DNA of 64,000 nucleotides from a virus, in the IMG/VR virus record IMGVR_UViG_3300020178_000897, positions 103,519-167,518 of that record. The stretch is one strand, 5' to 3'. Shown piece after piece: positions 29,401-51,991 of the stretch (the stretch's first letter is position 1; the number at the start of each line of letters is the position of its first letter). The position numbers were made by a program, and so were the translations under genes. The notes below the pieces were generated by a model, which was not told where the DNA came from, did no database searches, and saw only the letters and a program-made list of their open reading frames with translations.

Positions 29401-30075
29401 ATGTATGTAGAAATTGATGGATGGAGAAGTATTGAAGGTGACATTTGTTTAAAGTCTGCTAAAAAGCAAGGCGCAGGTAACATTAATAACTATCAAAACT
29501 TAGAACTTGCAACAGCAATGAGCTCGTGTGCAAAATGGCGAGTTGCCGTTGATGTAGGAGCTCATGTAGGTATTACAGCATATCAAATGGCAAAAAGTTT
29601 TGAACACGTTCATGCATTTGAAATTAATCCTCAGATTTACAACTGTATGAAACATAATCTTGCTGTTAGAAAAGTTGATAATGTTACAACATATCCTGTT
29701 GGTTTAGGAGCAATAGAAGAAACTGTTGAAATTAACACGACAAATAAAAGTTTCAGTACACACGTTCGTCCAAACAGTACAGGTTCAATTCCTGTAAAAC
29801 CTTTAGATTTTTTTAATCTGCGAGATGTAGATTTTATTAAAATTGATGCTGAGGGATATGAACCGTTTGTAGCAATGGGCGGAATAAAAACCATTGAACG
29901 TTGTAGGCCTATAATCTTATATGAATGTAAAGACCACCCAACACGTTATGGGTATCATGCTAATAGTATTAGAGAAATTTTAAGTCCATTAGGATATAGA
30001 ATGATTAGAAAAATAGGCCGCGGCGAAAAAAATGCAGTAATAGGTTATCGACCCGGAATGGCACCAGATGTTTGA
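29401..30075 (+). CDS. FkbM-family methyltransferase
   Basis: 224 residues. SAM-binding motif AVDVGAHVGITAYQMAK (about 51-67), motif II FEINPQIYNCMKHNL, and FIKIDAEGYEPFVAMGG with IILYECKDHP: the signature of FkbM-type O-methyltransferases that cap sugars in polysaccharides and natural products. Starts 1 nt after paralog 1 and overlaps the next GT by 8 nt. Probably methylates a sugar made or moved by its neighbours. Confidence 0.88.
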   Translation: MYVEIDGWRSIEGDICLKSAKKQGAGNINNYQNLELATAMSSCAKWRVAVDVGAHVGITAYQMAKSFEHVHAFEINPQIYNCMKHNLAVRKVDNVTTYPVGLGAIEETVEINTTNKSFSTHVRPNSTGSIPVKPLDFFNLRDVDFIKIDAEGYEPFVAMGGIKTIERCRPIILYECKDHPTRYGYHANSIREILSPLGYRMIRKIGRGEKNAVIGYRPGMAPDV

Positions 30076-30931
30076 GTTACCGAGATTATATGGAAGTTTA
30101 ACGCCAGCAAGTGAAAGCTGTGTTGTATTCTTTAGTTGTGATTACGATTATTTTGATCGACACGGATTTGCATTACAACAAAGTATTAATAGAACACTAG
30201 GTTGGATGCACGTACACTGTCATATTATAAATGAAGGAAACATGAATAAACTTGTGTTAGATGATTTACAATCCAAATATAAGTTTACGTATACATGGGA
30301 AGATGTCGATAATAAATTTTACACTAATCTAAAAAAGAATCATAAGCGCATGAAAGACGGCATTGATATTTTTAAGACTTCTGATTTAGATTATATTGCA
30401 AGAAGAACTTATCTTGCAAGTGTTAGATTTATGAGATTAGATGAATTATTTCCTAATAAAACTCAACACGTTTTTCAAATTGACTGCGATAGTATTTTAA
30501 GAAACGGATTTCATCAATCAGCATTTATGAATCTTGCTTGTCACGTTGGCATTATGCCTAAACCAAAAGATACAAATGTGTTTATTGCAAGTGCGTTAAC
30601 ATTAGGAATCAATGACGACGGACAACTTTTTAGAAAATTGTTTAGCGATAACATGAAACAAGGGTTTGATGACGGATGTTATTGGTTTATTGATCAAGAT
30701 ATTCTCAGGCAGACTATCTCGCAATGGAATAACGAATTAAACAAACCTTATCATAGTATTCCATATAAGTGGAATGCTTGGGGTCTAAAAAAAGATGATA
30801 TCTTTTCAACAGGTAAAGGCGGCAAGAAAAATGACAAACGTTATAAAGCGGCTCAACTACGTTGGTTACCAAATCATTGGAAAGTTAAAATTGAACAAGA
30901 ATTACGAGAGTTAAATTATGGCAGTAAATGA
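30068..30931 (+). CDS. GT-A glycosyltransferase with DCDS motif
   Basis: 287 residues. FQIDCDSILRN supplies a DxD-type metal/nucleotide-sugar site near residues 138-148; a Rossmann-like N terminus (CVVFFSCDYDYFDRHG) precedes it. General layout of GT8-like and related retaining transferases. Overlaps FkbM by 8 nt and the following GT25 gene by 14 nt. Donor sugar cannot be read from the sequence. Confidence 0.65.
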   Translation: MFELPRLYGSLTPASESCVVFFSCDYDYFDRHGFALQQSINRTLGWMHVHCHIINEGNMNKLVLDDLQSKYKFTYTWEDVDNKFYTNLKKNHKRMKDGIDIFKTSDLDYIARRTYLASVRFMRLDELFPNKTQHVFQIDCDSILRNGFHQSAFMNLACHVGIMPKPKDTNVFIASALTLGINDDGQLFRKLFSDNMKQGFDDGCYWFIDQDILRQTISQWNNELNKPYHSIPYKWNAWGLKKDDIFSTGKGGKKNDKRYKAAQLRWLPNHWKVKIEQELRELNYGSK

Positions 30932-31490
30932 TGGATTTGTCATTTACTTGCCATCATATCCTATTAGTGTCAAGATGGCAAATAGGGCGATACAAACAGG
31001 TAGAGAACATGGATGGAATATTAGTCTCTACGAAGGTGTATTAGGTACTACTAATACACTCGAACAAAATAATCTATATCCAATCGAGCATAAGAAAGCA
31101 AAAAGACTATTAGCTCGTCCTGGCACACAAGGATGCTTTTTAAGCCAATATAATTTATGGAAAAAGTGTGTTAACATTAATACACCTATTTGTATTTTTG
31201 AGCACGATGTTGTATTTAAAAAGCCAATGGGAGAATATGAAGATTGTGATGTATATAAATTTGAAGGCTTTAACAAGGCAAAACCTATACCAGCAGGTAA
31301 CTGGTTTGAAGGTGCTAGAGCATATCGCATTACGCCTACTGGGGCAAAAAAGATACTAGACTGGGTGCATACTAATGGAGTCATGCCAGCAGACTGGATG
31401 TTATGCGACGGTATTGTGGATATGCGCTTTGATAAGTATAGTAAAGTCACATATGAAACAAACGTAAGTTTTACAAAGGATCTATCATGA
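30918..31490 (+). CDS. GT25-family (LPS) glycosyltransferase
   Basis: 190 residues. FVIYLPSYPISVKMANRAIQ at the N terminus, GTQGCFLSQYNLWKKC (the GT25 GCxxSH-like block) and IFEHDVVF (metal-binding EHD) match LPS-biosynthesis family 25 transferases, as does WFEGARAYRITPTGAKKILD. These typically add galactose or glucose to LPS core. A second member lies at 37509. Confidence 0.8.
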   Translation: MAVNDGFVIYLPSYPISVKMANRAIQTGREHGWNISLYEGVLGTTNTLEQNNLYPIEHKKAKRLLARPGTQGCFLSQYNLWKKCVNINTPICIFEHDVVFKKPMGEYEDCDVYKFEGFNKAKPIPAGNWFEGARAYRITPTGAKKILDWVHTNGVMPADWMLCDGIVDMRFDKYSKVTYETNVSFTKDLS

Positions 31491-32272
31491 AGCGTATGAT
31501 TTATCAGGTAGCAGTTGGTGCCCAAAGCAAACTATACTTGCATTGTATTGAAAGTGTAAGACAGTATTGTGCAAAATACAATATTGATCATGTAGTTCAA
31601 ACACAACCTATTTTAAAAATTAGACCAGATATTGAACGGACCGGGCGCAGTAAAGAAGCTGTTGAACGCCTCGGGTATCTACCAATTTTTGAAAAAGAAA
31701 ATGCATTTTCGCATCTATACAAATATGACCAAGTTGCAATTGTAGACAGCGACATTTATATCAGACCAACAGCACCAAATATTTTCGAAGAGCTAACAAG
31801 TGAATATGCCTTTGGCGCGGTTGCAGAACGTGAACTACCGTGTGCAAAAAAATACAAATCAAAAATTAAAAAATACAGCAAGTCGGCATTTGAACCATGT
31901 ACAGATGTAGACTGGAAATGGAACGAACTAGGTGCTGAATTCTATAATATGGGATTAATGGTAATTAATTGTCAAAAGTTTCTTCCATATCTAAAAGATC
32001 AAACACCAAAGGAATTTTTAAGTAGACCCGAGTTTAAAGACTTTGTCGATGGAGTTGGCTATCGTAAATGGTCCACGGATCAAATGTTACTAAACTGGTG
32101 GGTTAAAAAAGAAAAAATTCCTACACTTAATATGAATTGGAAATGGAATGGTTTGTACAAAGGAATTGATGATAAAAGATTGCCCGAAGCATACTTTGTT
32201 CATTTTTTCCTTAAAGATTTATTGCCAGCGCACGGAGAAAATGTACCTGCACTAATGGAATCAATAAAATGA
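31487..32272 (+). CDS. GT-A glycosyltransferase with DSD motif
   Basis: 261 residues. KYDQVAIVDSDIYIRP provides the DxD site (about residues 78-93); downstream FYNMGLMVINC and FVHFFLKDLLP are typical of GT8-like cyanophage transferases. Overlaps both neighbours by 4 nt. Substrate unknown. Confidence 0.68.
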   Translation: MKRMIYQVAVGAQSKLYLHCIESVRQYCAKYNIDHVVQTQPILKIRPDIERTGRSKEAVERLGYLPIFEKENAFSHLYKYDQVAIVDSDIYIRPTAPNIFEELTSEYAFGAVAERELPCAKKYKSKIKKYSKSAFEPCTDVDWKWNELGAEFYNMGLMVINCQKFLPYLKDQTPKEFLSRPEFKDFVDGVGYRKWSTDQMLLNWWVKKEKIPTLNMNWKWNGLYKGIDDKRLPEAYFVHFFLKDLLPAHGENVPALMESIK

Positions 32273-33036
32273 AACATGTAGTAATGAGATACATGAGCAC
32301 TCGTATTAAACACTTGCCTTACGGTTGTCCAGGGTTTGGCGATATTGTACATAGTTGTTTACTAACTTACAACTACGGTTTAGCACATAACGAACCTGCA
32401 ACTTTACACATTGCTCCTCATCAATATAATAGAGATAAACCTGATACTTGGCGTGAAGTGATTGATTTATTTCCTAAGGATAGTTTGCATTTAAAAGTGC
32501 ATGAGTTTTTTGAAGAAGATGACGGAAAGTTTTTAGAATTTGTTCAGCAGTCGTATCCAGATGCATTATTACATTACTACGAAAAGTATCCAGGAAAATT
32601 ACAAAAAGTTTTACAGCCAAGTTTCTTTGTCGATGAATATATGAAAACATTTCCGTGTTTACCTTTTACAAAGTCGTCTGAGATAAAATTACCTAAAAAG
32701 TTTGTAACTGCACAGTTTGATCCTACTAGTAAGAAACGTAAATTAAAACCTGATCAATTGTCATTAATTTTTGAAAAGTGGCAATCATTAGGATATGAAG
32801 TAATTACTGTAGGCGGACAATCATCTAATCTATTACTTCGTAAAGCAACGCATGTTGGATACGTAATGAGTAAGGCAAGAGCTCATATAGGTGTAGATAG
32901 TGGTTACATGCACTTTGCTCAGATGTATTTCCCACCAGAGAATATACACATATATACTAATAGAAGCGAAAGTCAATGGGAACATCATTTAAAAATGTTT
33001 AGAGATAACGGAGCAAAGATTAATGAATACAATTGA
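32269..33036 (+). CDS. Heptosyltransferase-like (GT9-type) protein
   Basis: 255 residues. PGFGDIVHS (21-29) resembles the GLGDxI acceptor-side loop, and AHIGVDSGYMHFAQ (206-218) closely resembles the GT9 donor motif (vDtGxxHlA) of LPS heptosyltransferases. Shorter than WaaC/WaaF (about 320-350). If it uses ADP-heptose it would be the consumer of HldE/HldD product encoded at 3.6-5.7 kb; that link is inference. Confidence 0.6.
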   Translation: MKHVVMRYMSTRIKHLPYGCPGFGDIVHSCLLTYNYGLAHNEPATLHIAPHQYNRDKPDTWREVIDLFPKDSLHLKVHEFFEEDDGKFLEFVQQSYPDALLHYYEKYPGKLQKVLQPSFFVDEYMKTFPCLPFTKSSEIKLPKKFVTAQFDPTSKKRKLKPDQLSLIFEKWQSLGYEVITVGGQSSNLLLRKATHVGYVMSKARAHIGVDSGYMHFAQMYFPPENIHIYTNRSESQWEHHLKMFRDNGAKINEYN

Positions 33037-33514
33037 ATTTAACGGCGTTGAATATCCTGAATTACAAGGAAAAGGATTTGCCGCACAGTATGCGTTTCCG
33101 TTTGCAAAACAATTTTGTATAGGCAAAGGATTCGACATTGGTTGTAATAGAGAACAATGGGCTTATCCGGGCGCACAAATGATTGACCTTGTATTTGATG
33201 ACGAATACGATGCTTATAATTTACCAGATAAAAAGGTTGATTACATATTTTCTTCTCATTGCTTAGAACATTTAAATGATTGGGTAGGTGCTCTCGATCA
33301 TTGGACAACAAGATTACATAAAGGCGGAATTGTATTTTTGTATCTGCCACATCCTAATCAACAGTATTGGAAACCGTGGAACAATAGAAAGCATGTACAT
33401 TTATTACATCCAAGCGATATTAAAGATTATTTTTGTGCTAAAAAATTTAATAAAGTATTTGTTACAGAAGGGTACGATTTAAATCATTCTTTTTATGCGG
33501 TGGCAGAATTATGA
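33023..33514 (+). CDS. Class I SAM-dependent methyltransferase
   Basis: 163 residues. Motif I is GFDIGCNREQW (about 35-45), motif II a predicted acidic strand IDLVFDDEYDAY, and VDYIFSSHCLEHLNDW is the type-11 methyltransferase signature, followed by KGGIVFLYLPHP. Likely modifies a sugar or a lipid-linked glycan in the island. Overlaps the GT9-like gene by 14 nt and the next gene by 4 nt. Confidence 0.8.
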   Translation: MNTIEFNGVEYPELQGKGFAAQYAFPFAKQFCIGKGFDIGCNREQWAYPGAQMIDLVFDDEYDAYNLPDKKVDYIFSSHCLEHLNDWVGALDHWTTRLHKGGIVFLYLPHPNQQYWKPWNNRKHVHLLHPSDIKDYFCAKKFNKVFVTEGYDLNHSFYAVAEL

Positions 33515-34230
33515 AGAAAGAAATAAAAGATTTTAAAAATATTCATAAAGGTAAACGCTGTTTTATTTTAGGATGCGCACCAAGTTTATCTGACGAACGA
33601 TTAGAGTTATTAGATGATGAAATAGTATTTGCATGTAATAAGGCCTTTTATGCTAAGGATACTCTTAAGTTAAAAAAGTTTGATTATTATTTTGTTGGCG
33701 ACGCAATTGTATATAAAGAATTATATAATCATAGATATGATGCACTAGCTAATATGAAAGCTACAAGATTTTATTCTAGTAAAGTAGCAGAAATTAATCC
33801 AACATTAAACATAAGAGAAGACTATGTCAATATACCTAAAACATACGCTGATAAACAATCAGTAGAAATAAAAGGATTTCCTAGTAATATTGAAAAAGGA
33901 TGGGGCACTACTAGGGCAACAGTTATTGATGCCTCTATTATAGCATTTTATATGGGATTTAAAGAAATTTATTGGCTCGGTGTTGATTATGATTATAGTA
34001 ATTTAGAGCGTACACATTTCTACGGAACTGGGCCAAGAGAACAACTGTTAGTTCTTGAACGATTAGAAGATAAGAAGCAAATCACATTTAGACGTACTGT
34101 AGCTACAATAAAACATTTAACAAAACACTTTGGTATACATGACGTTGTTTTTAAAAATCTAAGCAAAGGTTTTAAGCATAAAGATGTTATGCACGTTGAT
34201 AGATTAGAAAATATTATTAGAAAGAAATAG
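33511..34230 (+). CDS. DUF115 / GT42 sialyltransferase-like protein
   Basis: 239 residues. GKRCFILGCAPSLSDERLELL with VFACNKAF and TTRATVIDASIIAFYMGFKEIYWLGVDY (quoted in parts) follow the layout shared by DUF115 proteins (flagellin nonulosonate addition) and GT42 sialyltransferases such as CST-I (GNGPSL, FRCNQFY, ALGYKEIYLSGID, recalled from memory). The next gene encodes a CMP-sugar synthetase-like domain, which is the donor type for this fold. It is a good candidate transferase for a nonulosonic or Kdo-like acid. Confidence 0.6.
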   Translation: MKKEIKDFKNIHKGKRCFILGCAPSLSDERLELLDDEIVFACNKAFYAKDTLKLKKFDYYFVGDAIVYKELYNHRYDALANMKATRFYSSKVAEINPTLNIREDYVNIPKTYADKQSVEIKGFPSNIEKGWGTTRATVIDASIIAFYMGFKEIYWLGVDYDYSNLERTHFYGTGPREQLLVLERLEDKKQITFRRTVATIKHLTKHFGIHDVVFKNLSKGFKHKDVMHVDRLENIIRKK

Positions 34231-34231
34231 A

Positions 34232-35536
34232 ATGAAAACTATAGCATTTGTACCTGCAAAAGGAACCAGCGAGAGAATTAAAAATAAAAATTTACAAATT
34301 TTAGATGGTGAATACCTCTTCAAAAGAAAATTAAAGCAATTACTAAAGTGTGATGAAATTGACGAAGTTTGGTTAGATAGCGAAAGTAAAGAAATACATG
34401 AGTTAGCAAGCGACTTGCCAATTAAGCATCATTATAGAGATTCTAGTTTAGCAAATAATACTACTGATGGACATGCTATGTTTGCTAATGAATCTAAGGT
34501 TGCTGAGGCAGACATAATTGTACAAGTTTTATGTACAGCACCTTTTATTGATAAAACTGTTATTGATCCTGCGTTAGCTGAATTAAAGAAAAGTAATAAA
34601 ACAAGTTTAGTTGCAGTTTCAGAACAAAAATTATATCTATGGGAAAATGGCAAACCTACATATGGTCAAACTATTCCTAACAGTGTTGATTTACCTATTC
34701 ATACAATAGAAGCAATGAGTTTCTATGCTGTTAAAACAAATGGTAAACCTGTACAAAAAAGATATACTTCTGATGCATTACTATGGTCTGTAACTCCGTT
34801 GCAGTTAGTTGATATTAATAATCAAGAAGATTTGGATTTTGCAAAAGATATTTGTGCAGGACAACGTGCAAAGAAAGTTCAACAACTTAAGATGTTAAGT
34901 AAATCAATTTCAAGTTGTTTACTAAGTGATATTTGTAAAGAACACGGTATTGATCATTTTTTAAGTAGTGAAATTAAATCAATGAACAACGGAACATTTT
35001 TAGGATATGCAAAAACATTAAAACTAAAAGCATTACCAGAAGATGAGAAAGATCCTAAACAAAAACATTGGGAAGGTATATTTGATGCTCTTGGCAGTTA
35101 TCAATTTGTAGCCCCAGGTGATGTTATTATTGTAAGCACTGACGTAAAAGATAAAGCATACTTTGGTGATCTTAATGCGCACTTTGCATACCGTAGTGGT
35201 GCAGTAGGTGTAGTTGTAGATGGACAAACTAGAGATGTAGATCGTGTAACACAAATGGGATTGCCGTTGTTTGCCCATGGGCGCATGCCAGACGATATTA
35301 GATACGAAGGCACATTAGAAGAAATGAATATGCCTGTAATTATTAATGGTATTACGGTACGTAATAATGATATTGTCTTTGGAGATCCTGACGGAGTAGT
35401 ATGCATACCAGAAGAAAAATGGGCGTTTGTATTTGAAGAAGTAAAGTCAGCATTGAAGAAAGAAATGCTTGTAAAATTTGAAGCAACATTTGGTAGCGAT
35501 CCATTTGATGTATTAAACAATGTAGGATTGTTTTAA
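34232..35536 (+). CDS. Fusion: CMP-sugar synthetase-like domain + RraA-like aldolase domain
   Basis: 434 residues. Domain 1 (1 to ~205): IAFVPAKGTSERIKNKNLQ is the CTP-binding signature of NeuA/CMP-acylneuraminate synthetases; later IVQVLCTAPFID and VDINNQEDLDFA fit the same family. Domain 2 (~222-434): SSCLLSDICKEHGI, GDVIIVSTDVKDKAYFGDL, GAVGVVVDGQTRDVDRV (323-339) and FGDPDGVVCIPEE are hallmarks of the RraA/HMG-aldolase family, with the Arg-Asp pair at 334-335 kept. The two domains are continuous in one frame. Domain 2 may handle a pyruvate-derived sugar acid or its precursor. Confidence 0.8.
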   Translation: MKTIAFVPAKGTSERIKNKNLQILDGEYLFKRKLKQLLKCDEIDEVWLDSESKEIHELASDLPIKHHYRDSSLANNTTDGHAMFANESKVAEADIIVQVLCTAPFIDKTVIDPALAELKKSNKTSLVAVSEQKLYLWENGKPTYGQTIPNSVDLPIHTIEAMSFYAVKTNGKPVQKRYTSDALLWSVTPLQLVDINNQEDLDFAKDICAGQRAKKVQQLKMLSKSISSCLLSDICKEHGIDHFLSSEIKSMNNGTFLGYAKTLKLKALPEDEKDPKQKHWEGIFDALGSYQFVAPGDVIIVSTDVKDKAYFGDLNAHFAYRSGAVGVVVDGQTRDVDRVTQMGLPLFAHGRMPDDIRYEGTLEEMNMPVIINGITVRNNDIVFGDPDGVVCIPEEKWAFVFEEVKSALKKEMLVKFEATFGSDPFDVLNNVGLF

Positions 35537-36235
35537 ATGAAACCATCGCAGTTAATAACCTACGGTTGTTCTCATACTTACGGACAAGGGTTACCCGACT
35601 GTGTAAACGAGTCTGATGTTCTTCAAGCAGGCCCAGATCCTAGTGCTTTAGCATGGCCTTCAATTTTACGGCAATTATTACAAATAAAACATTTAGATAA
35701 TAGATCAATACCCGGTGCATCAAATAAAATGATTGCTCATAGAATTTTTAATTCAACATTTAATGAAGGCGATGTTGTAGTAGTGCTATGGACTCGTTTA
35801 GCAAGACAAACCATTTATAAATCCAAAGACAAATATCTACATATGATGCCAGCATTTGTCGAAAAGAAAATGTCAAAAGGATTTTGGAAAACTATTAACG
35901 ACAAGTACGGAAGTGAAGTAGATCAATACAAACAAAATATAAGCACGTATTTTTCTGAATTTTTTGAAGAATATGATGCACAGTTTGACCAAATTAATAG
36001 AATAAATCATGTACATGCATTACTAGAATCTAAAAAGGTAAAAAGTTATCATTTGCTTATAGATACAGAAATGCACATTAATCAATTTAAACACATGCTA
36101 TTACCTAATTTAAATTATAAAGAATTTAGCTGGCATCCAGGGTTTAAAATTGATAATGCGTTAGATAACGTTCACCCGGGTGTAGTAAGTCACAAACAGT
36201 TTGCAGTAAACATAAGGAATTGGTTTTTTAAATGA
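35537..36235 (+). CDS. SGNH-hydrolase-like protein, paralog 1
   Basis: 232 residues. YGCSHTYGQGLPD is a block-I like GDSx nucleophile site, NRSIPGASNKMIAHRIF a block-II like Gly/Asn region, and NVHPGVVSHKQFA a C-terminal His block. The layout fits SGNH/GDSL esterases or acyltransferases that add or remove acetyl groups on glycans. Related copies occur at 49002 and 59964. Adjacent to the CMP-synthetase fusion, so sugar O-acetyl esterase activity is plausible. Confidence 0.62.
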   Translation: MKPSQLITYGCSHTYGQGLPDCVNESDVLQAGPDPSALAWPSILRQLLQIKHLDNRSIPGASNKMIAHRIFNSTFNEGDVVVVLWTRLARQTIYKSKDKYLHMMPAFVEKKMSKGFWKTINDKYGSEVDQYKQNISTYFSEFFEEYDAQFDQINRINHVHALLESKKVKSYHLLIDTEMHINQFKHMLLPNLNYKEFSWHPGFKIDNALDNVHPGVVSHKQFAVNIRNWFFK

Positions 36236-36921
36236 ATATAGCAATTTGTATTAGTGGAGTTAATGATAAGCAATCAAATATATTGCCAATGCTAAGACAA
36301 CGTATACCCGGTGTCAACTTTTATTTTCATACCTGGACTAATAAAACACATCTTGTACCTAGAGAGTTGCATGAAAGATTATTTACAATGCACTATCCTA
36401 AGTGGCATTATCACCCACTTCAAGTAGACCCGCCTTCAAAGCACCCAAAATATTTAAAACATAAAGGCGGCGAAGGATTAGAAATTGGCGAAATGTATTT
36501 TGGTGTTGCACCAATTATTGCCCATGCAGATATATGTAAAAAAATACCAAAGCATCACGATTTAATTATTAGGGTTGATTGGAATACTGAAATAGATAGA
36601 CAGGTACCTATTGAAAATTGGATGCGCAAAGCATACGAACACGGACCAGTTGGATTTATGACAAGACCTAATCGAGGTCCAAAATTTGGCTCAGGTCGAG
36701 TTGAAGAAGCAGACAAATTAAATTTAGAAGATGACTGGAATGGATTTTTGCCTTGTGATTTTATTATACATAGAAGAGACCACTTTAATACAAAATTAGT
36801 AACAGAGTTAGTAGATCAACATAAACTTTATCCAGCAGAGTTTGGATGGTATCAAGTTATGAGTGAATGGACTAATGACATTCACACTAGTATGCACGGC
36901 TTTGTTCAGAGAATTAAATAA
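36232..36921 (+). CDS. Possible glycosyltransferase, uncharacterised
   Basis: 229 residues beginning MNIAICISGVNDKQSNILPM and carrying FYFHTWTN and LIIRVDWNTEID. This start and the hydrophobic-strand/RxD arrangement resemble uncharacterised viral and bacterial proteins next to GT genes. C-terminal GFLPCDFIIHRRDHF and YQVMSEW fit that group. No confident family. Embedded in the island with 4-nt overlap, so a glycan role is likely. Confidence 0.5.
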   Translation: MNIAICISGVNDKQSNILPMLRQRIPGVNFYFHTWTNKTHLVPRELHERLFTMHYPKWHYHPLQVDPPSKHPKYLKHKGGEGLEIGEMYFGVAPIIAHADICKKIPKHHDLIIRVDWNTEIDRQVPIENWMRKAYEHGPVGFMTRPNRGPKFGSGRVEEADKLNLEDDWNGFLPCDFIIHRRDHFNTKLVTELVDQHKLYPAEFGWYQVMSEWTNDIHTSMHGFVQRIK

Positions 36922-36936
36922 CATTAGGAGTGTATT

Positions 36937-37512
36937 ATGAAAGTTTATGAATATAAAAGTTATGATGAATACTTAGAAAATCAAATAGAAGCTAATGTAA
37001 AGAAACTTAAAAACATTTACGTTGAAAAGAAAACAATTAATAAGATTTGTGAAGATAAAAAACAAGCAGAAAGAATTTTATGTCACGGCACACGCAATGC
37101 CGCAGAACAATATTACTTTAAAGAAAACTTTCCTAATGCAGAAATTATTGGAACTGAAGTATCACATACAGCATCTGAATTTCCTATGACTGTACAACAT
37201 GACTTTAATGAAGTAAATGATCAATGGGTAGGATATTTTGACATTGTATATTCAAATGCATTTGATCATGCATTTGATCCTATTAAAACTATTAAAGTTT
37301 GGGCTGATCAAATAAAGTCAACTGGTAAGTTGTACTTAGAACACGGCTACGGTCCTGATGATAATAATGCTAGACCGTGGGATCCAGTTGAAATTTATGA
37401 TGACGAATTGCGGCAACTGTTTAAAAATACAGGCTTAATATTAGAATCAGTTTTTGAATCAACCGGACTAAAAGGCAAAGTTCCTTGTAGAGTATATGTA
37501 CTGTCAAAATGA
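36937..37512 (+). CDS. SAM-dependent methyltransferase-like protein
   Basis: 191 residues. ILCHGTRNAAEQYYF in place of motif I, AEIIGTEVSHTA as motif II, and YFDIVYSNAFDHAFDP as the post-motif acidic strand, then GKLYLEHGYGPDD. The canonical glycine-rich loop is degenerate (HGTRNA), so activity is not assured. Preceded by one of the few clear SD sites in the island (TAGGAG, 36924-36930). Confidence 0.62.
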   Translation: MKVYEYKSYDEYLENQIEANVKKLKNIYVEKKTINKICEDKKQAERILCHGTRNAAEQYYFKENFPNAEIIGTEVSHTASEFPMTVQHDFNEVNDQWVGYFDIVYSNAFDHAFDPIKTIKVWADQIKSTGKLYLEHGYGPDDNNARPWDPVEIYDDELRQLFKNTGLILESVFESTGLKGKVPCRVYVLSK

Positions 37513-38168
37513 AAGCGTATGTAATTACTATACCAGGGCATAAAGATAGTCAGCTACATGCTGATAGATGTATTCAATCTGTAAAGGATACAAACTCAGA
37601 ATTAGATATTCAAAAGTTTGACGCAATTACACCTGATACTATGTGGGAAGTAAATTGGAAATGGCCTTACACTAAGAAGACAATTTGTCCTACAACTGGC
37701 ATGACACTTAAGGCATATAAAACATATGATATGACTAAACGTATTGCTGCCGCAGGTAGCCATTATGCACTATGGCAAAAGAGTGTTGAGCTTAATGAAA
37801 CAATTATGATTCTTGAACACGATGCTATTTTTACAAGACAATTTAAACCATTTGAATTTGTTGCCGGCGCTATTAGTATTAATAATCCAGACCATGCTAC
37901 CTTTAATTGGAAACTTTACAATGAGCTAGATAATTCAGGAGAACAGGAAGTTCCGTGGGTAACTGATCAAAATATTCCTCAGGGATTGCCAGGACACAGC
38001 GCATATATTATTAAACCAGAAGCCGCACAGCAGATATGTAACTTACAAGACAATATTGGTTGGTGGCCTAACGATGCTATTATGTGTAAACAGTTATGTC
38101 CTTGGTTACGAGCATATAAGCCTTACTTTACTAAAGTACAAGGTATCAAATCAACAACTAGCAAATAA
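37509..38168 (+). CDS. GT25-like glycosyltransferase, second copy
   Basis: 219 residues. AYVITIPGHKDSQLHADRCI at the N terminus, AAAGSHYALWQKSVE (GCxxSH-like block) and MILEHDAIF (EHD metal motif), and GHSAYIIKPEAAQQICN. Same architecture as the protein at 30918 but with little close identity, so an old duplication or separate acquisition. Overlaps the methyltransferase by 4 nt. Confidence 0.72.
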   Translation: MKAYVITIPGHKDSQLHADRCIQSVKDTNSELDIQKFDAITPDTMWEVNWKWPYTKKTICPTTGMTLKAYKTYDMTKRIAAAGSHYALWQKSVELNETIMILEHDAIFTRQFKPFEFVAGAISINNPDHATFNWKLYNELDNSGEQEVPWVTDQNIPQGLPGHSAYIIKPEAAQQICNLQDNIGWWPNDAIMCKQLCPWLRAYKPYFTKVQGIKSTTSK

Positions 38169-38175
38169 GTACGCA

Positions 38176-38183
38176 TATAAATA
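38176..38183 (+). promoter_or_regulatory. Perfect late promoter inside the glycan island, leaderless geometry
   Basis: TATAAATA exactly as in T4, then TCTAC, then ATG at 38189. The only late promoter I find between 28.6 and 43 kb; it could start a late sub-operon of the island. Confidence 0.72.
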
Positions 38184-38188
38184 TCTAC

Positions 38189-38950
38189 ATGAAAGTAGTA
38201 TTAGTTACCGGAGGATTTGATCCACTCCACTCAGGACATATTGAATACTTTAAGTCAGCAAAACAACTAGGCGATAAATTAGTTGTAGGTATTAACACCG
38301 ATGCTTGGCTTACACGCAAGAAAGGTCGTCCGTTTATGCCGGGCGCCGAACGCACGACAATCATACAACACTTATCTATGGTTGACCATTGTTTACTATT
38401 TGACGATGATGATAATTCGTCTAAGGAAGCAATTAAAAATGTAAGAATGATGTATCCGGATGCTCATATTATATTTGCAAACGGCGGCGATCGAACATCA
38501 AACAATATTCCAGAAATGGATACTGAAGTAGAAAATATTTCTTTTGAGTTTGGCGTAGGTGGGAACAACAAAGCTAATAGTAGCAGTTGGATACTTGACG
38601 AATGGAAAACACAAAAGACAGAACGTGATTGGGGATACTGGCGGGTGCTAGACAACAAACCAGAGAAAGGTTATAAAGTAAAAGAACTTGTAATCTATCC
38701 AGGCAAAGCACTCAGTGACCAAAAACATTTCAAACGTAGCGAACAATGGACAATACTTGAAGGCGAAGTTAAAATGGTAACTGAATGGAACAAACGCCAA
38801 GAGATTACTTACCTAACTCCATTGAGTAGACCGTACGAAATTAATAAAGAAGTCTGGCACAAAGCAAGTAATCCAGGAACAGAAAATGCACACATACTCG
38901 AAATACAACGCGGAGTGTGTTACGAAGAAGATATAGAAAGAAGGGATTAA
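38189..38950 (+). CDS. Fusion: cytidylyltransferase-fold domain + cupin
   Basis: 253 residues. N-terminal domain (1 to ~135): VTGGFDPLHSGH (6-17) and KLVVGINTDAW match the HldE C-terminal/glycerol-3-P cytidylyltransferase fold. C-terminal domain (~148-250): WGYWRVLDNKPEKGYKVKEL and HFKRSEQWTILEGEVKM match the phosphomannose-isomerase-type cupin. The expected ISSTxI-type end of the transferase is replaced by NSSSWILDEW leading straight into the cupin. The same two activities occur as separate genes at 3.2-5.7 kb. Confidence 0.78.
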   Translation: MKVVLVTGGFDPLHSGHIEYFKSAKQLGDKLVVGINTDAWLTRKKGRPFMPGAERTTIIQHLSMVDHCLLFDDDDNSSKEAIKNVRMMYPDAHIIFANGGDRTSNNIPEMDTEVENISFEFGVGGNNKANSSSWILDEWKTQKTERDWGYWRVLDNKPEKGYKVKELVIYPGKALSDQKHFKRSEQWTILEGEVKMVTEWNKRQEITYLTPLSRPYEINKEVWHKASNPGTENAHILEIQRGVCYEEDIERRD

Positions 38951-39627
38951 TGAAGGTATTTGTAGGTTACGACCCAAGAGAAGATATTGCTTATCAAGTA
39001 TGTAAACACAGCATACTAAGTAGACAACCTGACGCAGATGTGCGTCCATTAAAACAAAAAGAGCTAAGAGATGCAGGATGGTATACTCGTCCTGTAGATA
39101 AACTCGCATCAACAGAATTTACATTTACACGATTCCTTATACCAGAACTTACTAACTTCGAAGGCTGGGCAGTGTTTATGGATTGTGACATGATCCTTAC
39201 TACAGACATTAAAGAACTGTTTGATCAAGCAGATGACAAGTATGCAGTTATGTGTGTTAAACATGATTACAAAGTAACTGAGACTACTAAAATGGATGGT
39301 CAGAAACAAACAATTTATCCACGTAAGAACTGGTCAAGTGTTGTGTTGTTTAACTGTGGGCATCCTAGTAATAAGGTACTTGATCAAGATTTAGTAAACA
39401 GTTTAGAAATCAATGGAGCATACCTACACAGATTTAGCTGGCTTAAAGATGAAGAAATTGGAGAACTAGATCATACATGGAACTACTTAGTAGGAGTGTA
39501 TGATGATATTGAAACACCAAAACTAATACACTACACTGAAGGCGGACCATGGTTTGAAAACTACCGCAATTGTGAATTCCACGAACTGTGGAAAAAAGAA
39601 CTACAGGAAATGATGAATAAGGAATAG
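38950..39627 (+). CDS. GT8-like glycosyltransferase
   Basis: 225 residues from the ATG at 38950, which shares one base with the previous stop and follows a GAAGG SD; a longer start at 38917 lies within the upstream gene. FVGYDPREDIAYQVCKHSI is the typical N terminus of this viral GT group, WAVFMDCDMILTTDI holds the DxD site, and HYTEGGPWFENY the C-terminal block. Adds hexoses from UDP or GDP donors in related enzymes; donor here unknown. Confidence 0.75.
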   Translation: MKVFVGYDPREDIAYQVCKHSILSRQPDADVRPLKQKELRDAGWYTRPVDKLASTEFTFTRFLIPELTNFEGWAVFMDCDMILTTDIKELFDQADDKYAVMCVKHDYKVTETTKMDGQKQTIYPRKNWSSVVLFNCGHPSNKVLDQDLVNSLEINGAYLHRFSWLKDEEIGELDHTWNYLVGVYDDIETPKLIHYTEGGPWFENYRNCEFHELWKKELQEMMNKE

Positions 39628-39629
39628 AT

Positions 39630-40496
39630 ATGGGAACTTTTGATATGGAGGGAAATTCTCCAATACCACCTAGGATGCTAATGCTTAATGACGATGACGA
39701 AATTATGAAACATTGGCAGAAAGGCACGAAAGCATTAACTGTTGATCGAAAAGAAATTTGTAGTAAAATAGACAAGTCGCCCTGGGATATTAGTATTCCA
39801 GTATCATTCCGTAGCATGACTAAACGTAAAGAAATTTGGCGTTGTTGGGAAACTAGAAGAGACTTTTATTATATCGATAATGGTTATATGGGCAATTTAG
39901 AAAAGAAAAAATACTTTTATAGAATTGTAAAGAACAACGTACAACATACTAAAATTAAAGATGTGCCTGGAGATAGATTTAACAGATTGGTATCCTTTGC
40001 ACCATATATGAAATATAATGGTAGGAAAGATCCAAAGGACCACAACGGTCCTATATTACTTGTAACACCATCAGAAAAACCGTGTAAGTTTTATAATATT
40101 GATAAAGACAGCTGGGTAGAAGAAACTATATCCAAACTTAAACAATATACAGATAGGCCTATTGTTATACGTGACAAAGGGTTACGGTTTGAAAGAATTA
40201 AAGAAAACAGCGTAGCACATCAATGTAAAAGAGATAACGTGCATGCTGTAGTTACATACCAAAGTATGGCCGGACTTGAAGCAATGCATTATGGTATTCC
40301 TGCATTTACTATGGCACCGTCCTGTATTGACGAGGTAGCAAATAAAGATTTATCTAATATTGAAAATCCATACTATCCTAAAGCAAGTGAATTTTTAAGG
40401 GTCTTACATTATCTTGCATACTGCCAATATTCATTAGAAGAAATGAGTAGCGGAGTTGCATTAGGTATGATCGAGAGGATGAAGTTATATGACTAA
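39630..40496 (+). CDS. GT-B/capsule-synthesis-like glycosyltransferase, paralog 2
   Basis: 288 residues. YYIDNGYMGN pairs it with paralog 1 (28629); TYQSMAGLEAMHYGIPAFTM is the shared donor-site type motif; EVANKDLSNIENPYYP and YSLEEMSSG link it to paralogs 3 and 4. It thus bridges both branches of the family. Overlaps paralog 3 by 8 nt. Confidence 0.58.
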   Translation: MGTFDMEGNSPIPPRMLMLNDDDEIMKHWQKGTKALTVDRKEICSKIDKSPWDISIPVSFRSMTKRKEIWRCWETRRDFYYIDNGYMGNLEKKKYFYRIVKNNVQHTKIKDVPGDRFNRLVSFAPYMKYNGRKDPKDHNGPILLVTPSEKPCKFYNIDKDSWVEETISKLKQYTDRPIVIRDKGLRFERIKENSVAHQCKRDNVHAVVTYQSMAGLEAMHYGIPAFTMAPSCIDEVANKDLSNIENPYYPKASEFLRVLHYLAYCQYSLEEMSSGVALGMIERMKLYD

Positions 40497-41430
40497 TAAT
40501 TTAAGAGTAAATGCCTATATGAAGGCTATACCTCCCGGAAATAAAAATTTAGAAAAACCAAAGTTAATAGAGTATTTTATTCAAGGAGTAAACGCTGTTG
40601 GAGATAAAGGACAGATTATTAATACATTTCAATTTGAACCTGCTGACATTGGTGTACTACAAGGATTTGTACATCCTGAAAGTAAACACGTTCCTCATTT
40701 AGATTTAAGACGTAGGGTTCTTGCAGGACAGTCCGAGATAAATGGAAGAACTGTTATTGCTGATGCAAATTTATTCCTAGCATACGATCCAAAAAATTCA
40801 AATACATTTTTAAGATATAGCTTCGACGGAATTTTTCCAAACACTGGAGAATATTGTGATAGTAAAATACTTGCGCAACGCTGGGCAATACTACGAGATT
40901 CGTTAGGTATAAATTTAAAGCCATGGAAAAAACACGGTGATTATATATTAATTACATGTCAACGAGATGGTGGATGGAGTATGGACGGTCTTAAAATTAT
41001 GAATTGGTTGCATCCTTTATTACAAAATCTTAGAAGATATACTGACAGAGAAATAATGGTTAGGTTTCATCCTGGCGATAAGAAAATTGAAAAACATATT
41101 CAGCAACTAAGAGCAATTGGACACAAAGTTAAGATATCGTCACCGACTAGTTCTTTATTAAAAGACCTCCATGATGCATATGCTGTAGTTAGTTACAACA
41201 GTAGTCCTGGTGTAATATCTGCAATTGAAGGAGTTCCTGTATTTGTTATTGATCCTCAAAGAAGTCAAGCCGCAGAAGTTGCAAATACAGATTTAACTAA
41301 AATAGATACACCTAATTACGACTTTGATAGAGAATCTTGGCTTCGAAGAGTTGCAATGAGTCATTGGACGTTAAATGAATTAAAATCCGGCGAGTGTTGG
41401 AAACATATGAGAGAATGGGCAAAAAAATGA
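40489..41430 (+). CDS. GT-B/capsule-synthesis-like glycosyltransferase, paralog 3
   Basis: 313 residues. REIMVRFHPGDKKIEKHIQQ, VVSYNSSPGVISAIEGVPVF and EVANTDLTKIDTPNYD are shared in order with paralog 4; the C-terminal MSHWTLNELKSGECW box is the family tail. HPGD/RPHP-like strands before the S/N-rich loop are typical of KpsS-like transferases. In tandem with paralog 2. Confidence 0.58.
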   Translation: MTNNLRVNAYMKAIPPGNKNLEKPKLIEYFIQGVNAVGDKGQIINTFQFEPADIGVLQGFVHPESKHVPHLDLRRRVLAGQSEINGRTVIADANLFLAYDPKNSNTFLRYSFDGIFPNTGEYCDSKILAQRWAILRDSLGINLKPWKKHGDYILITCQRDGGWSMDGLKIMNWLHPLLQNLRRYTDREIMVRFHPGDKKIEKHIQQLRAIGHKVKISSPTSSLLKDLHDAYAVVSYNSSPGVISAIEGVPVFVIDPQRSQAAEVANTDLTKIDTPNYDFDRESWLRRVAMSHWTLNELKSGECWKHMREWAKK

Positions 41431-42269
41431 AACAAATAACAGTAGTAACAACTTTTCATCCGGCAGGATATGTAAAATACGGAAAACGTTTTTTAGAAAG
41501 TTTTGCATCAAAGGTTGATAAACGTATCAAACTACTTGTGTATGCAGAAGATGTAGTGCCCGACAATCCCGATCCAAGTCGTATTGAAATATTAGATGCA
41601 AAAGCAGTATTACCTAAATTAAATGCGTTTAAAGACAAATGGCGTAATGTTCCCAAAGCTAACGGAGACGTTAGCAATGAGCCACAGCGTCACACACGCA
41701 AGGATTGGAACAAAGAATTCAAGTGGGATGCAGTTAGGTTCGCTAATAAAACATATGCTGTGTATGACGCTTGTGCGCGGTCTAAGGGGTGGTGTGTGTG
41801 GATGGATGCAGATAGTTTTATTCACAGCCCTTGGGAATATGAAGACTTTGCACAACTACTACCAGACAATGCTTACATTACATATGTTGGTAGAGGTAAA
41901 GGATCGCAGACTTGGCCAGAGTGCGGGTTCTACGGTATGAATCTAAATCATCCTGTGTGTCACAGTTTCTTAGAAGACTTTGAGCGTATGTACGAGGATG
42001 CTGAGAACGGTATCTTCACATTAGAAGAATGGCACGACAGTTATGTGTTTGGCGAACTGCTAAAGAAGTATAGCGAATTTCCGTCACACGACTACTCAGC
42101 AGAAATGTATCTACGTGAAGCAAAGTCAGGCGGAGGCGGCCATCCGTTGATTAATGGTCCGTTAGGCAAATGGATTGATCATATGAAAGGCGGCCGCAAA
42201 GACAAAGGCAAGTCTGATGCTAAAGACATTATGGTAAATAGAACTGAAGCGTATTGGAATGAAATTTAA
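41427..42269 (+). CDS. GT-A-like glycosyltransferase with DAD motif
   Basis: 280 residues from the ATG at 41427, overlapping the preceding stop as ATGA. TVVTTFHPAGYVKYGKRFLE opens a Rossmann-like strand, and GWCVWMDADSFIHSP gives a DxD motif near residue 125. CGFYGMNLNHPVC and EEWHDSYVFGELL follow. Likely inverting or retaining GT-A; substrate unknown. Lies between two capsule-type paralogs. Confidence 0.65.
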   Translation: MKQITVVTTFHPAGYVKYGKRFLESFASKVDKRIKLLVYAEDVVPDNPDPSRIEILDAKAVLPKLNAFKDKWRNVPKANGDVSNEPQRHTRKDWNKEFKWDAVRFANKTYAVYDACARSKGWCVWMDADSFIHSPWEYEDFAQLLPDNAYITYVGRGKGSQTWPECGFYGMNLNHPVCHSFLEDFERMYEDAENGIFTLEEWHDSYVFGELLKKYSEFPSHDYSAEMYLREAKSGGGGHPLINGPLGKWIDHMKGGRKDKGKSDAKDIMVNRTEAYWNEI

Positions 42270-43101
42270 TCTTTGGAGGCAATATGGCGCACTTAATTCT
42301 GGCCCTGTTTTTGACGCCTTTCACGCTGGCGCTAATGCTCTTGGGCATACTTGTGTCGATAACAGTGATGATGGGATTGATGTTATTTGGAGCGTACTTT
42401 GGAACGGTCGTATGGTTGGAAACCGTGCTATTTGGGAAAGGAACGTTTTACAATCCAAACCGACCATCGTACTTGAAGTCGGCGGGATCAAACGAGGAAC
42501 AACCTGGAAAGTAGGACTCAATGGTATTAATAGAGATGCTTATTTTGGGCCTATGGGGAATGATAGTAGTCGTGCTTCTCTTCTCGGACTTACATTAAAA
42601 CCTTGGACCTACGACGGTGAATACATATTAATTTGTGGCCAACACGATAAGAGTTTACAATGGCAAGGTATGCCAAGTATGAGTCAATGGATAATAGATA
42701 CCATAACTTTTATACAAGCACAAACAAAACGTCCTATAATATTTCGACCACATCCAAGATGTCCATTACCGCATATTGAACACGAATTTAAGAATGTTAA
42801 ACGAGAAAACCCTAAGCATATTACTGGTAGCTATGACGATTTTGATATGGGCTTCAATAACATATGGGCTACTGTAAGTTGGTCAAGTAACCCTGGCATA
42901 CATAGTATTATTAACGGAGTACCTGCATTTACAGGCCCTAGCAGTTTAGCAGTAGACGTTGCAGAACAAAACTTACGCAATATTGAAAATCCACTGTACG
43001 GTGATAGAATACAATGGCTTAATGACTACGCACACACCGAATGGACTATTGAAGAAATTTCTAAAGGAATACCTATAAAACACTTGACATCTAAGTTGTA
43101 A
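42259..43101 (+). CDS. GT-B/capsule-synthesis-like glycosyltransferase, paralog 4
   Basis: 280 residues. RPIIFRPHPRCPLPHIEHE, TVSWSSNPGIHSIINGVPAF, DVAEQNLRNIENPLYG and TEWTIEEISKG align with paralog 3. Last gene of the glycan island; its 3' end contains the -35 box of the next promoter (43084). Overlaps the preceding gene by 11 nt. Confidence 0.58.
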   Translation: MKFNLWRQYGALNSGPVFDAFHAGANALGHTCVDNSDDGIDVIWSVLWNGRMVGNRAIWERNVLQSKPTIVLEVGGIKRGTTWKVGLNGINRDAYFGPMGNDSSRASLLGLTLKPWTYDGEYILICGQHDKSLQWQGMPSMSQWIIDTITFIQAQTKRPIIFRPHPRCPLPHIEHEFKNVKRENPKHITGSYDDFDMGFNNIWATVSWSSNPGIHSIINGVPAFTGPSSLAVDVAEQNLRNIENPLYGDRIQWLNDYAHTEWTIEEISKGIPIKHLTSKL

Positions 43102-46886: not shown

Positions 46887-47149
46887 TGGCTAAACTCCTG
46901 CCAGGAGAAGCTATAATATACGAACGTGCAGACGGAGTAGTATATGCACGTTATAGAGATCCTCCGCACAATAATGTACCTCGATGGATCATTGGCGGAG
47001 ATTCCAGTGCGGTTGCTAAAGCCCAAGGAAAATTGTTAGACTATAGTGAATGGCAAGACTTGTGTAGACTAGCAAAAGAACATTCTACATTAGAAAAATT
47101 ATTAGATCAATTAGTAACAATGTATTATGTAGTAAAGGACGAAAAATGA
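46886..47149 (+). CDS. Small conserved hypothetical protein
   Basis: 87 residues starting MAKLLPGEAIIYERADGVVY and ending LEKLLDQLVTMYYVVKDE. I recall short proteins with the same start and end in T4-like cyanophages, near clamp-loader genes. No function known. Overlaps kdsA by 4 nt. Confidence 0.6.
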   Translation: MAKLLPGEAIIYERADGVVYARYRDPPHNNVPRWIIGGDSSAVAKAQGKLLDYSEWQDLCRLAKEHSTLEKLLDQLVTMYYVVKDEK

Positions 47150-47928
47150 GAATTATTGCAGGACCCTGCCAACACGAAACACTAGAACAAAGTATTGAGA
47201 TTGCAGAAAAGTGTGCAAGAGTTTGCGCCAAGTATGGCATTGAATATTACTTCAAAGCCAGTTACGACAAAGCAAATCGTACTAGTGTAAACGGAGAAAG
47301 AGGCCAAGGTTTATTTACTACGTTATACGATTTTCAAACTATGAAAAAAGAAATACCAGGGTTAAAAACATTAACTGATGTACATACTTCTGAACAAGTT
47401 TCTACTATACGCAATCAGTTTAGAGATGCTGTAGATGTTCTACAGATTCCTGCGTTCTTGTGTAGACAAACAGATTTGATTACGTCAGCCTGCGACACAG
47501 GAATGATTGTGAATATTAAAAAAGGACAGTTCTTAGCACCCTGGGATGTTAAAGGAATACTAAGTAAGTGTACAGACGCAAAAGAAGTTTGGATTACTGA
47601 AAGAGGTACAAGTTTTGGATACAATACTTTGGTCGTGGACTTTACTGGTCTACAGTATATGCTTGATAACTATGATGTTCCTATTGTGCTTGATGCTACT
47701 CACGCAGTACAGAAACCTGGAGGCCAGGGTGATAGTAGTGGTGGGAACCGTGATTATGTCCCTGGGATCACTAGGGCTGGGTCTGCTCTTGGGATCACAT
47801 CCTTTTTTATGGAAGTCCATGCTAACCCTGATCTAGCACCTAGCGACGGTCCTAACATGTTAAAACTAGAAAACTTTGAGGAGGTAGTACGTGACATCAT
47901 CAGTCATTCTTATTCCCGCAAGGTATAA
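47146..47928 (+). CDS. kdsA: 3-deoxy-8-phosphooctulonate synthase KdsA
   Basis: 260 residues (E. coli: 284). TIM-barrel aldolase with IAGPCQHE at the N terminus, YYFKASYDKANRTS, TDVHTSEQV, IQIPAFLCRQTDL-type phosphate loop (VLQIPAFLCRQTDL), TERGTSFGYNTLVVD and DATHAVQKPGG. Condenses phosphoenolpyruvate with arabinose-5-phosphate to Kdo-8-phosphate. Cys8 in AGPC is the position that distinguishes metal-dependent KdsA enzymes. Overlaps kdsB by 38 nt. Confidence 0.95.
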   Translation: MRIIAGPCQHETLEQSIEIAEKCARVCAKYGIEYYFKASYDKANRTSVNGERGQGLFTTLYDFQTMKKEIPGLKTLTDVHTSEQVSTIRNQFRDAVDVLQIPAFLCRQTDLITSACDTGMIVNIKKGQFLAPWDVKGILSKCTDAKEVWITERGTSFGYNTLVVDFTGLQYMLDNYDVPIVLDATHAVQKPGGQGDSSGGNRDYVPGITRAGSALGITSFFMEVHANPDLAPSDGPNMLKLENFEEVVRDIISHSYSRKV

Positions 47929-48574
47929 CAGCACACGCTTCAAAGGAAAGCCTATGTGTATGTTAGATGGCGTTCCTATGATAAGACGTGTGTATGACGC
48001 TTGTACAGCGTCTAACCTACCAACATTTGTGCTTACTGACCACCAAGACATATACAACTATATGGGCGGCGGTAAGTGTATTATGGACACAACAGATTAC
48101 CAAAACGGCACAGAAAGATGTGCCGGAGCAGTAAACAGTAGAGTGTTTGACGACTTTGATCAGTTCATTAATGTACAAGGCGACATGCCTGATGTTACTG
48201 TAGAACTAATTGAAAATTGTATTGCTAGTTTATCTCAATATGAAGTAAGCACAGTGTACACAACAATGCCAGCTGAAATGCAAAACGATCCTAACAGTGT
48301 TAAGATGGTACGTGCAGGTGATCAAGCATTATGGTTTGGCAGAGGCATGACAGGATATGGCGACTGGCACTTGGGTGTTTATGGTTATCGCAAACAAGCA
48401 TTGCAAGCATATCCACACCTGCTTATAGAAGCAGAAGAAAGAATTGAGCAACTAGAACAGTTGAGATGGCTAAAAAACGGTTGGCAAATCGGCTGTAATA
48501 GTGTATACTTTAATGGAGTAGAGATTAATACCCCGGAGGATGTTGAAACATGGCAGATAAAAAATTACCACTAA
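47891..48574 (+). CDS. kdsB: CMP-Kdo synthetase KdsB
   Basis: 227 residues (E. coli: 248), GTG start at 47891 within kdsA, preceded by GAGG. IPARYNSTRFKGKP (8-21) is the CTP-binding signature; TDYQNGTERCAGAV and FINVQGDMPDV are the other KdsB motifs. Activates Kdo as CMP-Kdo for transfer to lipid A. KdsC phosphatase and KdsD isomerase are not in the window and would come from the host. Confidence 0.93.
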   Translation: MTSSVILIPARYNSTRFKGKPMCMLDGVPMIRRVYDACTASNLPTFVLTDHQDIYNYMGGGKCIMDTTDYQNGTERCAGAVNSRVFDDFDQFINVQGDMPDVTVELIENCIASLSQYEVSTVYTTMPAEMQNDPNSVKMVRAGDQALWFGRGMTGYGDWHLGVYGYRKQALQAYPHLLIEAEERIEQLEQLRWLKNGWQIGCNSVYFNGVEINTPEDVETWQIKNYH

Positions 48575-51431: not shown

Positions 51432-51991
51432 AAACTCACTTACTAGGTAACGAACATCAATGGATAATTGAAACAAACTATCCTGATCCTGAAGAGTTTG
51501 ACTTTCATTGGGATAAGAAAGTTTTTCCTAGCGATACTAGAGAAGATGTAAGTGACCAAACTACTACTTACAGAGGAAAGCAATTTAACGTACATCCACA
51601 AGCCTATCTAAATGAATGGAAATACAAACCATTTTTACAAGAAAAGATTGACCAAGTTGGATTAAATATAGAGCTAACTGATTTATGTGCATTGTGGATC
51701 GTTGATTACAAAAAAGGCGGCTGGCAAAAAGCACATAGACACAGTGACCAGACTATTAAAAAGATTAGTGCAGTTTGCTATCTAACAGATGGTGACGATG
51801 ATCCTACAGCGTGGCACGGAGGAACATTTGCATTCCTTTATGATGGTCAAGGAAATACACACGATCTTTGCTATAAGCCTAGCAGAGGTGATGTATTAAT
51901 TTTTAAAAGCACAGTCTTGCACGGAGCATATCCTACAAGAACTGACAAAAGGATATTTGTAGTTGATTACTTTTATAAGGAGAAAAAATGA
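51410..51991 (+). CDS. 2-oxoglutarate/Fe(II)-dependent oxygenase
   Basis: 193 residues. GGWQKAHRHSDQTIKKISAVCYLTD (in parts) gives the HxD iron site (His-Ser-Asp), GGTFAFL the central strand, and SRGDVLIFKSTVLHGAYPT with distal His and Arg (DKRIF) for iron and 2-oxoglutarate. Similar short prolyl-hydroxylase-type oxygenases are frequent in marine T4-like phages. Substrate unknown: protein, nucleobase or lipid. Confidence 0.78.
   Translation: MAGEYNLKTHLLGNEHQWIIETNYPDPEEFDFHWDKKVFPSDTREDVSDQTTTYRGKQFNVHPQAYLNEWKYKPFLQEKIDQVGLNIELTDLCALWIVDYKKGGWQKAHRHSDQTIKKISAVCYLTDGDDDPTAWHGGTFAFLYDGQGNTHDLCYKPSRGDVLIFKSTVLHGAYPTRTDKRIFVVDYFYKEKK

Follow-up and report, generated by a model that had tools for sequence, protein, structure and literature searches.

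A gene joining a CMP-ulosonate-synthetase-like domain to an RraA/aldolase-like domain in viruses and bacteria

A single open reading frame in a virus record encodes a 434-residue protein in which a CMP-ulosonate-synthetase-like domain is followed by an RraA/aldolase-like domain. The frame occupies positions 34,232–35,536 (+ strand) of the window, the 64,000-nucleotide stretch of DNA analysed here, which belongs to a 167.5 kb IMG/VR virus record. It starts with ATG, contains no internal stop codon, and has full-length homologues in both viruses and bacteria. We propose, with a probability of about 0.5, that the protein, with its two domains, is a CMP-sugar synthetase belonging to the Kdo branch and that its RraA half acts on the same sugar. 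Taken by itself, the assignment of the fusion to a Kdo-type sugar is likely.

Pfam recognizes both domains well above the gathering cut-offs. CTP_transf_3 covers residues 4–126 (69.4 bits, cut-off 22.6) and RraA-like (PF03737) covers residues 229–390 (95.6 bits, cut-off 24.5). By contrast, all curated NCBIfam models score below their cut-offs, namely the LigK equivalog (TIGR02798, 62.7 bits, cut-off 304.5), PseF (TIGR03584, 52.7 bits, cut-off 205.7), two KdsB models (NF003952, 51.2 bits, cut-off 193; TIGR00466, 19.5 bits, cut-off 155), and the RNase E regulator RraA equivalog (NF006875, 42.2 bits, cut-off 136). PHROGs contains no family for the fusion. In the PDB, sequence matches of the RraA half are the RraA-like proteins 3k4i, 5x15, and 3noj, and those of the nucleotidyltransferase (NTase) half are PpNeuA and CMAS. 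The AlphaFold model calculated with 33 homologues as input reproduces both folds (mean pLDDT 90.8, pTM 0.87) and supersedes an earlier model from 13 close homologues (pLDDT 52). The domains, the model, and the full-length homologues agree with the original prediction that one frame joins a NeuA-type nucleotidyltransferase to an RraA fold, and the fusion is a genuine two-domain gene. A chance join, a frameshift, and an assembly or annotation artefact are each ruled out by the full-length conservation in viruses and bacteria.

The original prediction knew of no described enzyme with this combination, and the literature searched, with most subscription journals outside its scope, yields no description of a CMP-sugar synthetase–RraA architecture. 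Both domains belong to known families; what appears to be undescribed is the role of the RraA half in the fusion. Sequence databases certainly hold such fusion proteins under generic names, and NCBIfam includes other RraA fusions with unrelated partners (PRK07028 and PRK12764).

The C-terminal RraA-like domain (residues 226–434; 34,907–35,533, + strand) matches the folds of 3k4i, 5ir2, 5x15, and 3noj. With HMG/CHA aldolase (3NOJ) and the RraA-like family, it shares the alpha-beta-beta-alpha fold, the class II aldolase signature D-X20-R-D, and an invariant C-terminal glutamate. In particular, D313 (35,168–35,170, + strand) aligns with D102 of the aldolase, and R334–D335 (35,231–35,236, + strand) align with R123–D124. 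The Arg-Asp pair, which the original prediction held to be kept, is invariant in 33 of 33 homologues, as are G312, N315, T333, E411, and the YFG-LNA and TRD stretches, in a domain with a mean pairwise identity of 55%. D313 itself is Asp in 29 of the homologues, Glu in two, and Asn in two, so that not every homologue has a strictly aldolase-like site. Arg-123 of HMG/CHA aldolase matters for catalysis and phosphate activation, this RraA-fold aldolase has a phosphate site, and most RraA homologues with these motifs are regarded as pyruvate aldolases (PMC5065237). The fusion differs from HMG/CHA aldolase in its 23% identity, in the nucleotidyltransferase that it carries, and in its low LigK score. 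E. coli RraA (1q5x) shares the fold at about 20% identity; to our knowledge, it does not have the aldolase metal motif of the fusion. The RraA half is somewhat more likely catalytic than inert. We favour the reading that it works on the 2-keto acid itself, with a non-catalytic scaffold as the main rival.

The N-terminal nucleotidyltransferase domain (residues 1–212; 34,232–34,867, + strand) has the NeuA/PseF fold and CTP loop. Foldseek ranks NeuA proteins (6ifd, 9t4z, 1qwj, and 1eyr) ahead of KdsB, and the CMP-Kdn synthetase PpNeuA (9t4z) is both the closest sequence and the fold match with the best TM-score. Over 210–220 residues, the domain shares with PpNeuA and murine CMAS (1qwj) the fold, a CTP loop with K/R residues, and one metal Asp, at 18–21% identity. 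Residues K10, R15, and K19 are invariant in 33 of 33 homologues. D194, also invariant, aligns with a Mg ligand of NeuA, and residue 196, which corresponds to the second metal Asp, varies: 28 of the 33 homologues have Asn and the other five Asp. Asn is known as a Mg ligand in GlmU and related nucleotidyltransferases, so Asn at this position is no sign of inactivity.

In NeuA (Nm), Asp209 and Asp211 are the metal ligands, and Gln104 and Arg165 contact sialic acid (PMC2901514). When aligned via murine CMAS, the counterparts of Gln104 and Arg165 in the fusion are the invariant residues L100 and S151, which argues that the acid sugar of the fusion differs from sialic acid. The RRQD motif of NeuA is likewise replaced, by an invariant PNS. 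With KdsB/KpsU, the CMP-Kdo synthetases, the NTase half shares the superfamily, and the fusion fills the same reaction slot in a KdsD–KdsA operon, but the identity by structure alignment is only 12–16% and the QGDEP metal motif is missing. The specificity motifs of both NeuA and KdsB are absent, which counts against the Kdo reading. Where the fusion has an RraA domain at its C-terminus, NeuA proteins have no second domain, an esterase, or a HAD phosphatase. Animal CMAS is a NeuA with a KdsC-like HAD domain and E. coli NeuA is a NeuA with an esterase; these provide a precedent for a second catalytic or relic domain, although theirs are unrelated to RraA.

Bacterial gene context suggests a link between the fusion and Kdo. 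The sphingomonad operon has the order ~394-residue protein, KdsD-like protein (SIS+CBS), fusion, KdsA; the fusion has the genomic partnership with KdsA and KdsD that is expected of KdsB. Of 29 fusion genomes, 28 have KdsA. We also sampled 401 genomes of the order to which one fusion genome belongs; 122 of them carry KdsA and 10 carry the fusion, always together with KdsA (hypergeometric P 5e-6, phylogeny ignored). The fusion adjoins KdsA in eight of these ten genomes; in the other two, a conventional KdsB lies beside KdsA. In ten genomes (G002, G003, G018, G019, G022, G023, G025, G027, G205, and G257), the fusion is the sole CTP_transf_3 match above 30 bits reported and hence the only strong candidate for a CMP-Kdo synthetase. 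This count is sensitive to how complete the assemblies are and, in the case of G205 and G257, to an E-value limit of 1e-8. Another CTP_transf_3 protein, mostly beside KdsA, is found in all 30 of the KdsA-positive, fusion-free genomes tested. Elsewhere, the fusion adjoins ABC-exporter capsule genes (Amantichitinum and a gammaproteobacterium) or an NTP transferase and a weakly CDP-glycerol-transferase-like protein (Rhodospirillaceae). In the Rhodospirillaceae and Pelagibacter loci, KdsA is not adjacent to the fusion, a point against the Kdo reading.

Nine sole-candidate genomes of the sphingomonad type, which have KdsD, KdsA, and the fusion, were searched for WaaA and KpsC/KpsS, and none was detected; use of a Kdo-type sugar there must need an unassigned transferase. 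In genomes that do have KpsC/KpsS, such as G011, G015, G021, and G371, a conventional KdsB accompanies them, away from the fusion operon. The ~394-residue operon protein (cluster 3; 7820–9004 in locus L037, with homologues in L024, L033, L040, and L042–L047) has no Pfam or PDB match. Profile comparison with KpsS gives a probability of 50% (P 1.6e-4), and the protein is in the operon of most of the nine genomes without detected WaaA. The comparison is suggestive only, and this weakly KpsS-like protein is a candidate for a new Kdo-type transferase.

Kdo-8-phosphate phosphatase is less regular. None of the 10 fusion genomes in the order sample has KdsC, just 3 of the 29 fusion genomes first found have a KdsC that passes its cut-off, and in most fusion genomes no enzyme was identified that would dephosphorylate Kdo-8-phosphate. 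This point counts against the Kdo reading, but it is tempered by the fusion-free KdsA genomes, half of which (15 of 30) also have no KdsC over the cut-off.

The virus record belongs to a large T4-like marine phage and is probably a fragment, because related viral contigs are as long as 236 and 256 kb. Genes for a gp32-like protein and UvsX lie before a glycan island that contains the fusion; UvsX is nearest to those of jumbo myoviruses such as Vibrio phage 2.275.O and Agrobacterium phage Atu_ph07 (~65% identity). Immediately upstream of the fusion is a candidate glycosyltransferase of the MptE-like type (33,511–34,230, + strand), which matches PF01973 with an E-value of 1.1e-7 and 32.2 bits, just below the cut-off of 34.6. 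A member of this family lies directly beside the fusion in 20 of 29 viral loci, and whether it precedes or follows the fusion varies with the lineage; the member in L064 exceeds the cut-off with 46.5 bits, and the others score 18–33 bits. We take PF01973 to be the family that holds the Maf transferases. A Maf glycosyltransferase of Clostridium botulinum uses CMP-Neu5Ac and CMP-Kdo as donors and moves Kdo from CMP-Kdo to flagellin (PMC11339370).

About 12 kb downstream of the fusion, the phage encodes KdsA, the Kdo-8-phosphate synthase (47,146–47,928, + strand; NF003543 325 bits, cut-off 242; PF00793 1.2e-49), with 46% identity to an Erythrobacter KdsA. The 3' end of kdsA overlaps by 38 bases with a gene for a KdsB-like, conventional CMP-Kdo synthetase (47,891–48,574, + strand; PF02348 90 bits), which is matched over nearly its whole length but scores below the curated cut-offs of NF003952 (168 bits, cut-off 193) and TIGR00466 (120 bits, cut-off 155). 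Of the 29 virus records with the fusion, 7 also contain KdsA; the remainder are mostly short fragments. A KdsA–KdsB pair is annotated in Synechococcus phage S-SCSM2R, so phage kdsA and kdsB are in themselves not new. Across the whole viral record, no homologue of KdsC or KdsD was found at the sensitivity used.

The island also contains four paralogues of a phage family (28,614–29,399, a candidate glycosyltransferase; 39,630–40,496, which on its own gives no informative Pfam match; 40,489–41,430; and 42,259–43,101; all + strand). The profile of this family weakly resembles that of KpsS, the capsule Kdo transferase (P 2.8e-5, 74% probability). The rest of the island around the fusion (29,401–39,627, + strand) encodes two GT25 proteins, a GT8-like protein, and FkbM and other methyltransferases, in keeping with the glycan setting of the original prediction. 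With KdsA, KdsB, the fusion, and candidate transferases, one large phage would have a rather complete viral supply of an activated acidic sugar. Also in the window are a cytidylyltransferase-like domain (HldE/TagD type) fused to the C-terminal cupin domain of mannose-6-phosphate isomerase (38,189–38,950) and a 2OG-Fe(II) oxygenase-like gene followed by peptide deformylase (51,410–52,503). In nine other viral loci, the fusion is flanked by two families with no convincing Pfam match (5197–5961 and 7246–8004 in L055), one of which looks GT-A-like by eye.

From the domains, their conservation, the motif, and the gene context, all of which are observed, we infer the following chemistry. KdsA of the phage or the host would provide Kdo-8-phosphate, and a phosphatase would take off the phosphate. 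With CTP and Mg, the NTase half would load CMP onto a 3-deoxy-2-ulosonic acid for which, as the context implies, the KdsA product is the precursor. The Mg/Arg-Asp site of the RraA half would hold this sugar, in its open-chain form, by the 2-keto acid end, and enolate-type (aldol/retro-aldol) chemistry at this end could give activated Kdo or a close variant. In the phage, the MptE/Maf-like and KpsS-like neighbours may then pass the sugar to an acceptor on the virion or the host surface. The phage and many fusion genomes have a conventional KdsB alongside the fusion, which suggests that the fusion is not merely redundant and that its product may be other than plain CMP-Kdo. A specific version of this idea, quite unlikely in our estimate, is that the RraA half cuts and re-forms the Kdo C3–C4 bond (for example, in a C4 epimerisation) before CMP loading, which would yield a new activated ulosonic acid. 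If so, LPS-less sphingomonads and large marine phages would use a new sugar in protein or capsule glycosylation, with unassigned transferases.

The strongest competitor of a catalytic RraA half is one without catalysis that serves oligomerisation or regulation; the protein would then be a CMP-Kdo synthetase with a trimer-forming domain. RraA-fold proteins assemble as trimers or hexamers, the joining of RraA to unrelated partners in PRK07028 and PRK12764 is expected of a portable module, and D313 is not invariant. Invariance of R334, D335, YFG-LNA, TRD, and E411 despite 55% mean identity looks instead like a kept ligand site, and we regard the scaffold as possible though doubtful. If the RraA half is catalytic, it could alternatively join pyruvate to an aldehyde and so form the keto acid. 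The retained aldolase signature and the reversibility of class II pyruvate aldolases suit this reaction; KdsA, however, already makes the keto acid in both the operon and the phage, leaving it very unlikely. Of the original prediction that domain 2 is tied to a 2-keto acid sugar, the tie itself is strengthened by the KdsD–fusion–KdsA operons and the phage KdsA, and synthesis from pyruvate is weakened by the same KdsA neighbour. Dephosphorylation of Kdo-8-phosphate in place of KdsC, comparable to the HAD domain fused to animal NeuA, would account for the scarcity of KdsC in fusion genomes and would employ the phosphate site known in an RraA-fold aldolase. We consider it highly improbable, as KdsC is also lacking in half of the fusion-free comparison genomes and its absence is hence uninformative, three fusion genomes do possess KdsC, and we know of no RraA phosphatase. 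An RNase E regulator tying RNA decay to glycan synthesis, the other role suggested for this domain, is barely credible: the fold alone speaks for it, whereas the regulator model scores far below its cut-off, the aldolase signature is kept, and the genomic associations are with sugar genes, RNA genes not being associated in the loci examined.

The alternative for the NTase half is a nine-carbon acid (Kdn, legionaminic, or pseudaminic acid) or an acid unrelated to KdsA products. The greater similarity of fold and sequence to NeuA and CMP-Kdn synthetase than to KdsB counts against the Kdo reading, with PpNeuA as the nearest protein and PseF as the best curated NTase model, though far below its cut-off. 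On the other hand, the sphingomonad operon holds KdsD and KdsA rather than NeuB, KdsA is in every fusion genome of the sample, and the sialic-acid-binding motif of NeuA is missing. A nine-carbon or unrelated acid is therefore unlikely. The Kdo-type assignment would tie an RraA-fold domain, from a family mostly without assigned function, to one defined pathway and points to a substrate class, Kdo and its phosphate.

The fusion has full-length homologues, at 43–100% identity, in some 29 viral contigs and some 28 bacterial genomes. Among the 30 genome loci, about 28 hold a full-length gene; the copies in L050 and L052 are cut, and that in L048 is frameshifted. No match was found among 50,697 phage records, the plasmids searched contain no full-length match, and the NeuA-like genes in three plasmid regions inspected have no separate RraA neighbour. 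The Pelagibacteraceae homologue has 62% identity, and homologues outside this family have 43–49%. They occur in Sphingomonas, Erythrobacter, Qipengyuania, Rhodospirillaceae, Amantichitinum, a gammaproteobacterium, a planctomycete, and bins labelled Marinimicrobia. Four contigs so binned (Candidatus Marinimicrobia; L035, L036, L039, and L048) have a neighbourhood nearly identical to that of Rhodospirillaceae contigs and are probably mis-binned or mislabelled. The broken-frame copy in L048 (6636–7926), from a metagenome bin, is a sequencing error or a pseudogene.

The viral proteins form one group (support 88/75) that joins the Pelagibacteraceae protein with support of 100/100. The tree fits an exchange of the gene between phages and a SAR11-like host, the direction being unproven. 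An invention confined to phages is ruled out by the breadth of the fusion in Proteobacteria and beyond and by the position of the Pelagibacteraceae protein as sister to the phage clade. Pairwise identities of the NTase and RraA domains correlate with r=0.94, indicating that both halves evolve and travel as one gene. Purifying selection acts on both domains, with dN/dS, where computable, of 0.03–0.11 across the two and 0.03–0.09 in the RraA half.
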